From: Nitrospirota bacterium
GTDB taxonomy: Bacteria > JACPQY01
Length of the DNA stretch: 33,631 bases
Direction of reading: 5' to 3'
Assembly: GCA_016180645.1 (NCBI GenBank)
Contig: JACPAV010000037.1
Location: 1-33,631 of the forward strand
Shown here piece after piece: positions 4,995 to 33,631 of this stretch; position 1 is the stretch's first letter; every line of letters begins with the position of its first letter. Made by a program: the position numbers and the translations under genes. A model generated the notes under the pieces. The model worked only from the letters and a program-made list of their open reading frames with translations. It did no database searches and was not told where the DNA came from.

Positions 4995-5030
4995 AATTTG
5001 AGATTTCAAATTTGAAATTTGAGATTTTGA
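4995..5030. repeat. AT-rich palindrome between valS and nadC
   Basis: The 67-bp gap between valS and nadC holds a perfect 16-bp palindrome ATTTCAAATTTGAAAT (5003-5018) flanked by further copies of the word TTTGAGATTT. Outside it are C-rich CCACCCCCC (4983-4990) and G-rich GGTGGTGGTGGGG (5032-5044), which could extend the stem. The AT-rich block contrasts with the GC-rich genes on either side. A hairpin in the message or a small interspersed repeat are both possible. Confidence 0.5.
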
Positions 5031-12049: not shown

Positions 12050-12119
12050 AATCGTGATCCCGTGAACCGGTTGGATCGATCGGGATCACGGTCTTACGGG
12101 ATCACGGGTTCACGATTCA
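12050..12119. repeat. REP-like palindromic element A between livK and livH
   Basis: CGTGATCCCG (12053-12062) is complementary to CGGGATCACG (12081-12090), and the word CGGGATCACGG recurs at 12098-12108. The outer words AATCGTG (12050-12056) and CACGATT (12111-12117) also pair. A related element occurs after secA (17742-17832), sharing the left word AATCGT(G/A)ATCCCGTGA and the right word CGGGATCACGGG(T/C)TCAC. The stem lies in the livK-livH message and its last bases overlap the livK stop, so it could affect mRNA stability. No T-run follows, so it is not a standard terminator. Confidence 0.7.
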
Positions 12120-22212: not shown

Positions 22213-23226
22213 ATGCCGCGGATGGCGCGACTGGATACCCCGGGCACCCTGCATCACGTGATGGGACGCGGGATTGTCCGGCAAGCCATCTACACGAACG
22301 ACGGGGACCGCGGAGACTTCTTGGATCGCGTGGGCCGACTGGCGGGGGAGAAGGCATGGGCGGTCTACGCGTGGGCCCTGATTCCGAACCACTTCCACCT
22401 ATTGGTTCGAACGGTGGGGATGCCCCTGTCGCGCAGCATGAGGCGACTAATGACGGGATATGCGGTGTCGTTCAATCTGCGGCATTGTCGGGCGGGGCAC
22501 CTGTTCCAGAACCGATTCAAATCGATTGTGGTGGAGGAGGAGGGTTATTTCCTGGAGTTGGTGCGGTACCTGCATTTGAATCCGCTGCGGGCCGGCGTGG
22601 TGAGGGATATGGAGGAGTTGGACGAGTACCCGTATTCGGGGCACAGCGCGTTAATGGGTCGGGTGGATCGGGAGTGGCAGGATACGGAGTCGGTTTTGAG
22701 TCGATTTGGCTCCCAGGCGGGAAGGGCGCGTTCTCGGTATCGCGAATACGTGGAAGCGGGGAGGGATCAAGGCCGTCGCCCGGAACTTATGGGGGGTGGA
22801 TTGATCCGAAGCGCGGGGGGATGGGAATCCGTGAGGGCCATGAGGAGGGGCCGGGAGGCGTTTTTGTCGGACGAGAGAGTTCTCGGGACGGGTGAATTTG
22901 TGGAGAGGCTGGTTCGTGAGGCGGAGACGTTGGGGGAGACCCGGAGCCGGCTTCAGCGGTCTAGGGTATCCCTGCCGGTGCTCCTGGGTCGCGTATGCAG
23001 GGAGATGGGGGTGTCGGCGGAGGCGGTCTTGGGGGGGAGCCGGAGGCGGGATGTCTCGCGCGTCCGGGCTGTGGTGGCGTACGTGTGGACGGAGCACTTG
23101 GGTCGCAGCGGGAGGGCGCTGGCTCAGGCGCTGGGTGTGAGGCCGGTGTCGATTTGGCACGGCGCCCGGCGCGCGGGGGCGGGGCGCGCAGAGTGGGCGG
23201 GTAAGGTGGCTGGATGGTGCAAATAA
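22213..23226 (+). CDS. REP-associated tyrosine transposase (RAYT, Y1_Tnp/TnpA_REP family)
   Basis: Single-strand DNA transposase related to IS200/IS605 TnpA. The 337-residue protein starts with the family opening MPRMARLDTPGTLHHVMGRG. The HUH metal site is H60-F-H62 in IPNHFHLLV. FQNRFKS near 98-104 and a Tyr-bearing helix (Y112, Y119) leading into LHLNPLRAGVV complete the catalytic domain (1-160). RAYTs of this longer class add a C-terminal region; here residues about 240-330 include LLGRVCREMGVSAEAVLGG and AYVWTEHLGRSGRALAQALG, a DnaA-like helix-turn-helix pattern. Family knowledge links such proteins to the spread of REP palindromes carrying GTAG. The gene appears intact. Confidence 0.93.
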   Translation: MPRMARLDTPGTLHHVMGRGIVRQAIYTNDGDRGDFLDRVGRLAGEKAWAVYAWALIPNHFHLLVRTVGMPLSRSMRRLMTGYAVSFNLRHCRAGHLFQNRFKSIVVEEEGYFLELVRYLHLNPLRAGVVRDMEELDEYPYSGHSALMGRVDREWQDTESVLSRFGSQAGRARSRYREYVEAGRDQGRRPELMGGGLIRSAGGWESVRAMRRGREAFLSDERVLGTGEFVERLVREAETLGETRSRLQRSRVSLPVLLGRVCREMGVSAEAVLGGSRRRDVSRVRAVVAYVWTEHLGRSGRALAQALGVRPVSIWHGARRAGAGRAEWAGKVAGWCK

Positions 23227-31776: not shown

Positions 31777-32889
31777 GTGGATCAGAGATGGTCGCCCGTT
31801 CTGGAAGCCTTCGGGAATATTGGGATCGGGGGCGAGGACTTCCTTGTCATGGTGGTCATCTTCCTGGTGCTGGTTGCACTGGCGGGGGTGGGAATCGGCA
31901 TCGCCTATTTCGTGGGAGCCCGGAAGCGGAACCAGAAGATTCTTGCCGAATACGCCGCCACCTGCAAGGTGAACAAGCTGGACAAGGATGAACGCGCGAT
32001 CTTGGATCAAATCGTAGCAGTCGGCAAGATCCGTCCTGTCACCCGGATATTTACGTCGAAGAACATGTTCGACCGTGCTGTGGCGATGTGGACCAAGACG
32101 GTCGGCGCCGCGAATTCGGAAGAGAAGGCCGAGATCCTTGGAACTCTGCGCAAAAAGCTCAATTTTGCGAAAGCCAAGGAGGGAGTGCAGGTGGCGAGCA
32201 GCCGGAGCATCCTGCCAAAACAAATCCTCGAAGTTGAATTGACCGATCGGAAGCCGCCGATCAAGTTCAAGCCCGTGGTGCTTCAAGTCGACGATTTCGG
32301 GATCACGATCCAGATACCTCCCGAGATCGAGCACAAGGTTTTCTTCCGTCACGGCGAACCGGTGGATGCGGTCTTCACGAGGCCGGGAGAAGGGACGTAC
32401 GGTTTCGCCACGAAGGTTCAGGGCATCCCGCACCCCAAGAAACTGATTCTCGACCATTCGGAGAAATTGAACGTAACGCAGCAGCGGGGACACGTGCGGG
32501 TCGACATCCGTTATCCCGCGAAGTTCAAGAGGATTCCATCCGAAGTAATTCAGGACAGGGACAAGGTCGCCCGAGTGATAGGCGACGACCAGGCGGAAAT
32601 GATTTCAGGCGAGGTGACAAACCTGAGCGGCGACGGGGCGATGCTCCGAGTACCGCAGGAGTTTGCCAAGAACGATCACGCGTGGTTCAAGCTTCAGCTC
32701 GATTCGCAGGAGAAGGACTCCAAAATCACGTTCTATTGCCGCGTGCTAGGGTCATCGCCTCATCCGAATGGAAAAGAATTCTTCCTCCGGACCCAGTTTG
32801 TGGACATGTCCGAACCGATCCGCGAGAGAATCATCCAGTTCCTTTTCAAGTTCCAGACCGAATCCCTCAAAGAACAATCCGGCCGGTAA
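31777..32889 (+). CDS. Membrane-anchored PilZ-domain protein, YcgR-like
   Basis: A 370-residue protein that probably binds cyclic di-GMP. One membrane segment (22-47) is followed by a helical region (50-140), a YcgR-N-like beta domain (about 145-230) and a PilZ domain (about 232-360). The PilZ marks are the arginine motif around QQRGHVRVDIRYPAKFKR (near 237-254) and NLSGDGAML (near 282), which gives the (D/N)xSxxG motif. Such proteins slow flagellar rotation or control matrix export (family knowledge), and a flagellin gene lies in the same window. The start is GTG at 31777; TAGTAA ends six bases before it and no ribosome-binding site is visible. Confidence 0.85.
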   Translation: MDQRWSPVLEAFGNIGIGGEDFLVMVVIFLVLVALAGVGIGIAYFVGARKRNQKILAEYAATCKVNKLDKDERAILDQIVAVGKIRPVTRIFTSKNMFDRAVAMWTKTVGAANSEEKAEILGTLRKKLNFAKAKEGVQVASSRSILPKQILEVELTDRKPPIKFKPVVLQVDDFGITIQIPPEIEHKVFFRHGEPVDAVFTRPGEGTYGFATKVQGIPHPKKLILDHSEKLNVTQQRGHVRVDIRYPAKFKRIPSEVIQDRDKVARVIGDDQAEMISGEVTNLSGDGAMLRVPQEFAKNDHAWFKLQLDSQEKDSKITFYCRVLGSSPHPNGKEFFLRTQFVDMSEPIRERIIQFLFKFQTESLKEQSGR

Positions 32890-32915
32890 TCGATCTAGTC
32901 AGGATTAACAACCAC

Positions 32916-32944
32916 TTGACAAACAGCAACAAGATGGGCTAAAG
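32916..32944 (+). promoter_or_regulatory. Candidate promoter facing the right-edge lipoprotein region
   Basis: A perfect TTGACA (32916-32921), 17 nt, CTAAAG (32939-32944, weak), seven bases, then ATG at 32952. The geometry matches the leaderless promoters elsewhere in the window. Confidence 0.45.
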
Positions 32945-32950
32945 CATTCC

Positions 32951-32966
32951 CATGCGTCAACGCATG
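32951..32966. repeat. Perfect inverted repeat over the candidate start codon
   Basis: CATGCGT (32951-32957), CA, ACGCATG (32960-32966). It contains ATG 32952 and the word TGCGTCA that is also repeated in the control region of the lytic transglycosylase gene. It could be an operator or a hairpin at the 5' end of the message. Confidence 0.45.
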
Positions 32967-32991
32967 TGGAGTGATGCAAGGAGGGTACGGC

Positions 32992-33631
32992 ATGGGGGAG
33001 CATCGGAGAACCCCGGAGAACCCCGGAGAACCCCGGAGAACTGATCCGTCCTCGCCAATAAATCTTGGTAGGCGCAGGCCATGTTACATGCCGCGCCATC
33101 CTGGGCGCGGCGACATCTCATGGTCCCATGCCCTCCGTGGCATGGGGCTTTACGCCTGCGTCCGAAGACGCACCCATAAAGGGTGCGGCTACCCGAGGCC
33201 GGCGCTTCTTGATCTTGGTAGGCGCAGGCTTTACGCCCGCGTCCGAAGACGCACCCGTGAAGGGTGCGGCTACCCGAGGCCGGCTCCTCTTGATCCTGGT
33301 AGCCGCGGGCTTTATGCCCGCGTCCGAAGACGCACCCATGAAGGGTGCGGCTACCCGAGGATGGCTCCTCTTGATCCTGGTAGCCGCGGGCTTTATGCCC
33401 GCGTCCGAAGACGCACCCATAAAGGGTGCGGCTACCCGAGGCCGGCTCCTCTTGATCCTGGTAGCCGCGGGCTTTATGCCCGCGTCCTCGCTCACTCCTC
33501 ATCGCTCCTCGCTTCCTCTCACCGCCTCTTCCCACTCACCACTTGCCTCTTACTACTCACCCTCTTCGCCTCCTGCACCGATGGAGGCGGCTGCCTGCCC
33601 GGAGAGGGGGGCGGCGGCGCCGGTCCCACCG
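32992..33631 (+). CDS. Open frame through the repeat array into a lipoprotein signal sequence (partial, probably disrupted)
   Basis: From ATG 32992, with AAGGAGG eight bases upstream, the frame stays open for 213 codons to the window edge. Codons 5-17 come from the 10-bp repeat and about 26-165 from the 81-bp array, which adds 27 residues per unit in frame. At the end of this frame (codons about 181-195) comes a typical lipoprotein export signal: LFPLTTCLLLLTLFASC, with Cys195 followed by Thr-Asp-Gly and a Gly-rich stretch. No ATG, GTG or TTG lies in frame between the last complete array unit and the lipobox. The likely history is a lipoprotein gene whose signal region was invaded by repeats. 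Whether the long product is made is doubtful. Confidence 0.4.
   Translation, partial: MGEHRRTPENPGEPRRTDPSSPINLGRRRPCYMPRHPGRGDISWSHALRGMGLYACVRRRTHKGCGYPRPALLDLGRRRLYARVRRRTREGCGYPRPAPLDPGSRGLYARVRRRTHEGCGYPRMAPLDPGSRGLYARVRRRTHKGCGYPRPAPLDPGSRGLYARVLAHSSSLLASSHRLFPLTTCLLLLTLFASCTDGGGCLPGEGGGGAGPT
33005..33041 (+). repeat. 10-bp tandem repeat GGAGAACCCC
   Basis: Three full copies and a 7-base partial copy, head to tail, perfect. The unit is not a multiple of three, so gain or loss of one copy changes the frame between upstream starts and the lipobox downstream. Confidence 0.9.
33067..33487. repeat. 81-bp tandem array of BIME-like, cloverleaf-forming units
   Basis: Each full unit is 58 bp plus a 23-bp spacer; units start at 33217, 33298, 33379 and 33460 (the last truncated after 28 bp). 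A longer relative at 33067-33193 has 69 extra bases within its first hairpin. In one unit the outer arms GGTAGCC and GGCTACC pair, and inside are three hairpins: GCGGGC-TTTAT-GCCCGC, GTC-CGAA-GAC and GCACCC-ATGAA-GGGTGC. Both ends carry GTAG read inward, as in two inverted REP sequences (a BIME). The first hairpin closely resembles pseudomonad REPs in form. The 69-bp insertion brings two more stems, CCGCGCC/GGCGCGG and CCCATGCC/GGCATGGG. Confidence 0.9.

Follow-up and report, generated by a model that had tools for sequence, protein, structure and literature searches.

The 3' end of the contig studied here raises the question of which start codon, if any, is joined to the lipoprotein signal sequence encoded there. 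The window is the entire contig C37 (33,631 nucleotides), one of 65 contigs in a genome of 4.72 Mb, and since the feature abuts the contig end, just 19 residues of the mature protein are left, counting the Cys. A hydrophobic core is followed by a lipobox of the form L-x-[SA]-C or a close variant (LTTCLLLLTLFASC-TDGGGC, present in both C37 and C31); TTCGCCTCCTGC begins at 33565, and the Cys codon occupies 33574-33576. However, C37 lacks a standard start in the 45 aa before this Cys, unlike 68 of the lipoprotein candidates sampled, which start with ATG, GTG or TTG within that distance. The first-pass annotation had described two ATGs far upstream, at 32952 and 32992 (here ATG1 and ATG2), and its coordinates and frames were confirmed: ATG1, where ATGCGTCAACGCATG begins, is one base off the lipobox frame and runs into the TGA at 33042-33044, and ATG2, preceded by a Shine-Dalgarno sequence, opens a frame that continues through to the lipobox in the C37 sequence (Table 1).

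Table 1. Coordinates of the leader, its repeats and two other genes in the window
Feature	Position	Strand	Remarks
Start of the four-copy unit, holding promoter, both start codons, 10-bp array and palindromic block	32904..33150	+	Similarity starts at ~32904, just 5' of TTGACA
TTGACA, -35-like hexamer	32916..32921	+	Sequence read
CTAAAG, -10-like	32939-32944	+	Rejected by strict promoter scan
ATG1 frame (MRQRMWSDARRVRHG...), promoter-proximal, leaderless-like	32952..33044	+	Stops at TGA 33042-33044 in C37
Shine-Dalgarno GGAGG and ATG2 (32992), within GGAGGGTACGGCATGG	32980..32994	+	Lipobox frame in C37; GGAGGGTACGGCATGG identical in 4/4 copies
G-run (count includes the G of ATG2)	32994..32998	+	5 in C37, 6 in C26, 5 in C27, 4 in C31
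10-bp array, CGGAGAACCC x 3.8	33004..33041	+	TRF; all three frames without stops
Composite palindromic (REP-type) block, two strong hairpins	33062..33150	+	Missing from C31; related copies at ~40 genome loci
81-bp tandem array (4.2 units), each unit two GTAG-tagged REPs head to head	33145..33487	+	Sister loci have fewer units
Degenerate heptamer stretch, TCCTCGC x 4.7	33485..33518	+	Inside a 42-nt in-frame insertion relative to the other three copies
Putative lipoprotein signal core and lipobox LTTCLLLLTLFASC, mature start CTDGGGCLPGEGGGGAGPT	33520..33631	+	Ends at contig end; same core at C31:1-74
IS200-like Y1 transposase, DnaA-type C-terminal helix-turn-helix, RAYT-like	22213-23226		
PilZ-domain protein, directly upstream of the feature	31777-32889		54% identical in sister genus

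Both arrays in the leader are far above chance. TRF reported the 10-bp unit at 3.8 copies with 100% agreement (units of CGGAGAACCC start at 33004, 33014 and 33024) and the 81-bp unit at 4.2 copies with 93%. The longest self-match was 28 nt at lag 10 and 58 nt at lag 81, compared with maxima of 13 and 11 nt, respectively, in 200 Markov simulations. The C37 feature matched no family in Rfam.

Searching the genome with pieces of the leader and lipobox identified four dispersed copies, at the 3' ends of C26 and C37 and the 5' ends of C27 and C31. The C37 unit matches C26:75892-76139 with 97% identity, C27:107-343 with 91% identity and, in part, C31:82-259. TTGACA, ATG1, ATG2 with its Shine-Dalgarno sequence, the G-run, the 10-bp array and a palindromic block are common to all four copies, and the composite REP-type block of C37 is missing from C31. 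An exact search of the genome with an 18-mer covering two units of the 10-bp array returned only these four loci. The genes flanking the C26, C27 and C37 copies differ: C37 has the PilZ gene, and, on our reading of the translations, the neighbors are suf-like in C26 and flagellar-motor-like in C27.

Comparison of the four copies localizes the changes that affect the reading frame. The distances from TTGACA to ATG1 (36 nt) and from ATG1 to ATG2 (40 nt) are the same in 4/4 copies, and 11 nt separate the array end from the palindromic block in all copies. From the block to the lipobox anchor, which in C26 and C27 falls directly at the contig end and in C31 and C37 is followed by the readable lipobox itself, the distance is 477, 192, 192 and 42 nt in C37, C26, C27 and C31, respectively. 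Each of these is a multiple of 3, as is each downstream insertion (the 150-nt palindromic block, three 81-bp units and the 42-nt heptamer-like stretch). Since the 5' spacings are fixed and the downstream differences are multiples of 3, frame-breaking changes are limited to the G-run and the 10-bp tract. Accordingly, the distance from ATG2 to the array end is 55, 56, 45 and 104 nt in C37, C26, C27 and C31, with GAGAACCCCG counts of 3, 3, 2 and 8. The lipobox frame is free of stops from ATG2 on in 4/4 copies, and the two other frames stop within tens of nucleotides 3' of the array. As assembled, ATG2 leads into the lipobox in C37 and ATG1 does so in C27, and C26 and C31 have neither ATG in its frame. 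The first-pass annotation had predicted that removing one 10-bp unit would place ATG 32952 in the lipobox frame; the arithmetic is correct, and C27, whose array is one unit shorter than that of C37, is a paralogous locus arranged in exactly this way. Its broader claim that the 10-bp copy number sets the frame stands only in part: the number does differ among the four copies, but the G-run sets the frame too.

These data place a non-triplet tandem repeat between the start codons and a conserved frame, with tract lengths that differ, among four paralogues rather than alleles, between flanks that are fixed or change by multiples of 3. The 10-bp repeat and start layout looks like a surface-protein on/off switch, and we consider it quite possible, though somewhat short of probable, that the four loci belong to a family of at least four lipoprotein genes with a translational phase-variation (contingency) switch at the 5' end. 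In such a switch, transcription would start near ATG1; the promoter-proximal ATG1 and the Shine-Dalgarno-bearing ATG2, 40 nt apart, would open different frames; and slippage at the G-run and the (CGGAGAACCC)n tract would select one of three states, in which the lipobox frame is entered from ATG2, from ATG1 or from neither. The REP palindromes would be selfish repeats inserted 3' of the tract and held in frame. From the sequence, we infer that the leader and lipobox frame would be transcribed and translated into an exported lipoprotein and that tract length would change within living populations. The tract itself is short, at three to four 10-bp units.

A less likely account, to which we nonetheless assign an appreciable chance, is that the copies are neutral leaders or decayed genes, with the tract and REP block being untranslated or dead DNA in which length and frame drift without consequence. 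The frames of the four copies appear random, chance alone would put about two of four copies in frame with either start, REP elements invade the region, and, in the alignment of C31 with the other copies, substitutions between ATG1 and ATG2 are not concentrated at synonymous sites. On the other hand, the lipobox frame is open in 4/4 copies and every downstream insertion keeps the frame; the latter involves about three independent indels, with a chance probability of about 1/27. The Shine-Dalgarno-ATG2 segment also shows no differences among the four copies, nor does either start spacing vary, despite a diverged upstream spacer in C31.

The two starts were also considered in the context of transcription. 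The perfect TTGACA that the first-pass annotation had placed upstream of ATG 32952 is present, and a sigma-70 scan of C37 accepted no site because the -10 sequence CTAAAG is poor by consensus. Of 39 genes in the sample where TTGACN precedes an in-frame ATG by 27-41 nt, 20 had a spacing of 35 nt, a sharp peak that suggests frequent use of leaderless transcripts by this organism. The spacing of ATG1 from TTGACA suggests a leaderless transcript here, and a layout of this kind is also seen in giant lipoprotein genes that are intact, on C17 and C36. ATG2, in turn, follows a good Shine-Dalgarno sequence. On sequence grounds, both ATG1 and ATG2 are thus plausible starts, which is what would make three states possible.

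In the lipobox frame of C31, the interval from the array to the lipobox contains no ATG, GTG or TTG, so translation would have to enter 5' of the tract. If an unusual start codon 3' of the array were used instead (e.g., the ATA of PINLGRR...), the array would be 5' UTR and the signal peptide would have a normal length of 28 residues; the C31 peptide INLGRRGLYARVRSLTTCLLLLTLFASC would indeed make a normal lipoprotein signal peptide. We regard this as very improbable: the codon is non-canonical and has no Shine-Dalgarno sequence, the REP block moves it far upstream in C37, C26 and C27, and the 68 candidates described above use standard starts close to the Cys. Entry 5' of the tract has a cost of its own, in that the in-frame leaders would be 194 residues from ATG2 in C37 and ~110 from ATG1 in C27, lengths that are poor for Sec export. 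Leaders of ~65 residues are seen in two paralogous giant lipoproteins, on C36 near 3783 and C60 near 3897 (MSLAGLSLREVSRV.../MSFAGLSLRQVSRV...), where they carry different heptamer arrays, both in frame.

The hairpins suggest a further alternative by analogy with pil1 of Streptococcus gallolyticus, in which the order of promoter, leader start, tandem repeat, strong hairpin and surface gene is the same (PMC3894217). Here, ATG2 or ATG1 would begin a leader peptide, and tract length would determine whether the ribosome reaches the REP hairpins or stops short of them, and would thereby control transcription or translation of the downstream gene. Predicted RNA folds are consistent with this idea (-45.4 kcal/mol, z -3.0, for the C37 block; -22.6 kcal/mol, z -2.5, for the C31 hairpin), as is the termination of out-of-frame readings so soon after the array. 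Unlike pil1, however, the hairpins have no terminator T-tract, the single terminator-like hit in a terminator scan was at shuffle level, and C31 has no separate standard lipoprotein start after the hairpin from which a downstream gene could be read. Attenuation of this kind is therefore improbable in our estimation, though less so than an unusual start.

Because 4/4 copies lie at contig ends, and a comparison of contig ends at k = 99 showed that C26 and C27 terminate on one 99-mer, we also weighed the misjoining of contig-end repeats during assembly. We give this explanation very little credence. The junction between a REP half-site and the start of the signal region (GCGTCCGCTCACTCACCA) recurs in three other contigs, extending to the lipobox in C31, and a k of 99 resolves 10-bp tracts shorter than 99 bp as well as diverged 81-bp units. 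The common 99-mer apparently has the assembly word length, so C26 and C27 both seem to enter one collapsed continuation that is missing from the bin. When contig-end forks were compared at k = 99, no contig carried the continuation of the gene body; a link to the giant-protein contig ends C63/C5 is a guess. Other contigs also break within giant repetitive surface-protein genes (C63 at its 3' end and C5, C43, C50, C56, C60 and C36 at their 5' ends), and several of these ends have an exact 99-base sequence in common. With so many breaks inside such genes, the MAG under-represents repeated surface genes.

The palindromes that split the signal region proved to be genome-wide repeats. GTAG-tagged REP elements have been defined previously (PMC3733652), and the 81-bp units are head-to-head REP dimers with a GTAG tag at both outer ends and 54 local matches genome-wide, i.e., GTAG-tagged palindromes in many genomic copies. 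A related composite palindrome makes up the 150-nt block and recurs in ~40 places in the genome. We dropped the 81-bp palindromes as a switch component, since they occur genome-wide and, elsewhere, at other spacings (39, 42 and 79 nt). In the leader, these dispersed elements are added in multiples of three, and they are best regarded as having invaded it rather than as forming its switch. Seven Y1_Tnp genes in the genome score above the Pfam cut-off, and the RAYT-like protein in the window scores 52.7 bits, under the curated RAYT equivalog cut-off of 80. The 81-bp in-phase tandem array within a putative coding leader differs from known GTAG REP/RAYT systems. GTAG-type REPs also occur in frame deep within giant-protein ORFs (C17:53335, C44:2235 and 5292, C24:97311, C5:110175 and C27:18079), where in most cases they translate as VAAPF(M/T)GASSDAG(I/V)KPA(P/A)T. 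The Rickettsia palindromic elements are likewise embedded in proteins; the REPs described here belong to a different lineage.

The first-pass annotation had suggested that relatives might carry a clean lipoprotein allele without the array. Instead, the orthologous site in the sister genus holds an SDR-like gene and neither array nor lipoprotein, and searching the sister genus with the leader gave only short REP matches and no array. A 28-mer of the 10-bp array and a 29-mer of the lipobox had no match in the viral contigs scanned, and the PilZ gene had none in a genome-contig collection. The best ValS matches in that collection are at ~50-54% identity, mostly to Desulfobacterota and other deltaproteobacteria, so no near named relative is among them.

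The proposed switch resembles several known systems in part. Neisseria Opa proteins have CTCTT repeats located in the signal-peptide region, and Haemophilus lic2A, a glycosyltransferase gene, has four-base repeats. Our family is like Opa in having dispersed paralogues with near-identical 5' ends, but there is no sequence relation, the putative product is a lipoprotein rather than a barrel protein, and the unit is 10 bp; gonococci carry 12 opa alleles (PMC4235727) or about 11 genes (PMC3745409). In lic2A-type genes, several start codons in different frames precede the repeat and yield graded or multiple ON states (PMC4235727). Several starts in different frames likewise lie 5' of the tract here, one promoter-proximal and the other with a Shine-Dalgarno sequence. 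A similar placement of the repeat is seen in the Neisseria autotransporters AutA and AutB, whose signal sequences are encoded by a region containing AAGC repeats; in both cases, a non-triplet repeat lies between the start codon and the signal-peptide core, and copy number sets the frame (PMC5118866). The present family, predicted from sequence, differs in having a 10-bp unit together with a G-run, a lipobox, two candidate starts, REP insertions and copies dispersed over four loci.

We also surveyed non-triplet arrays more widely, in genes of at least 200 aa within 1.59 Mb of the genome, a nonrandom sample for which contig ends and repeat-rich contigs were chosen and in which ORF-based calling detects in-frame arrays only. 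This sample contained 55 short non-triplet tandem arrays in genes, mostly heptamers, of which 23 fell within the first 60 codons (expected, 11.7%; p = 1.6e-8). Arrays were present in 9/76 lipoprotein-like genes and 12/801 others (p = 2e-5), with the caveat that pyrimidine-rich heptamers may themselves appear hydrophobic. In 0.4 Mb of the sister genus, from the same family, the corresponding counts were 2/14 and 0/217 (p = 0.003), and both N-terminal arrays were in lipoprotein-like genes. Counting genic and intergenic arrays of differing units together, there are ~53 short non-triplet arrays per Mb in the 1.59-Mb sample and ~30 per Mb in the sister genus; the window has two at 4995-5027 and 12081-12114. 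Most heptamer arrays have about four copies (36/61), the usual number in published accounts of Xanthomonas and Nostoc heptamers as well (PMC4692102). They could be tolerated in-frame insertions and not switches, and we did not adopt the view that every tandem array is a switch. In one further lipoprotein gene, with fibronectin-like repeats (C2 near 121862, minus strand), a (CTCA)~6 tract lies between a promoter-proximal ATG and the lipobox, which are out of frame as assembled. It is rather unlikely that this deep, uncultured lineage, sampled in two genera, has a genome-wide contingency system in signal-peptide codons, with 4-, 7-, 8- and 10-bp repeats in many lipoprotein export signals; in such a system, the 10-bp family at four loci would be the clearest case of a three-state member.

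Most known examples of repeat-tract phase variation come from pathogens that are host-adapted and have small genomes. If the proposed switch is real, it would extend such variation, via a dispersed lipoprotein family whose signal-peptide codons carry repeat tracts, to an uncultured lineage and a very different bacterium. Because non-triplet repeats are concentrated in lipoprotein export signals, read mapping alone could test the idea across genomes.
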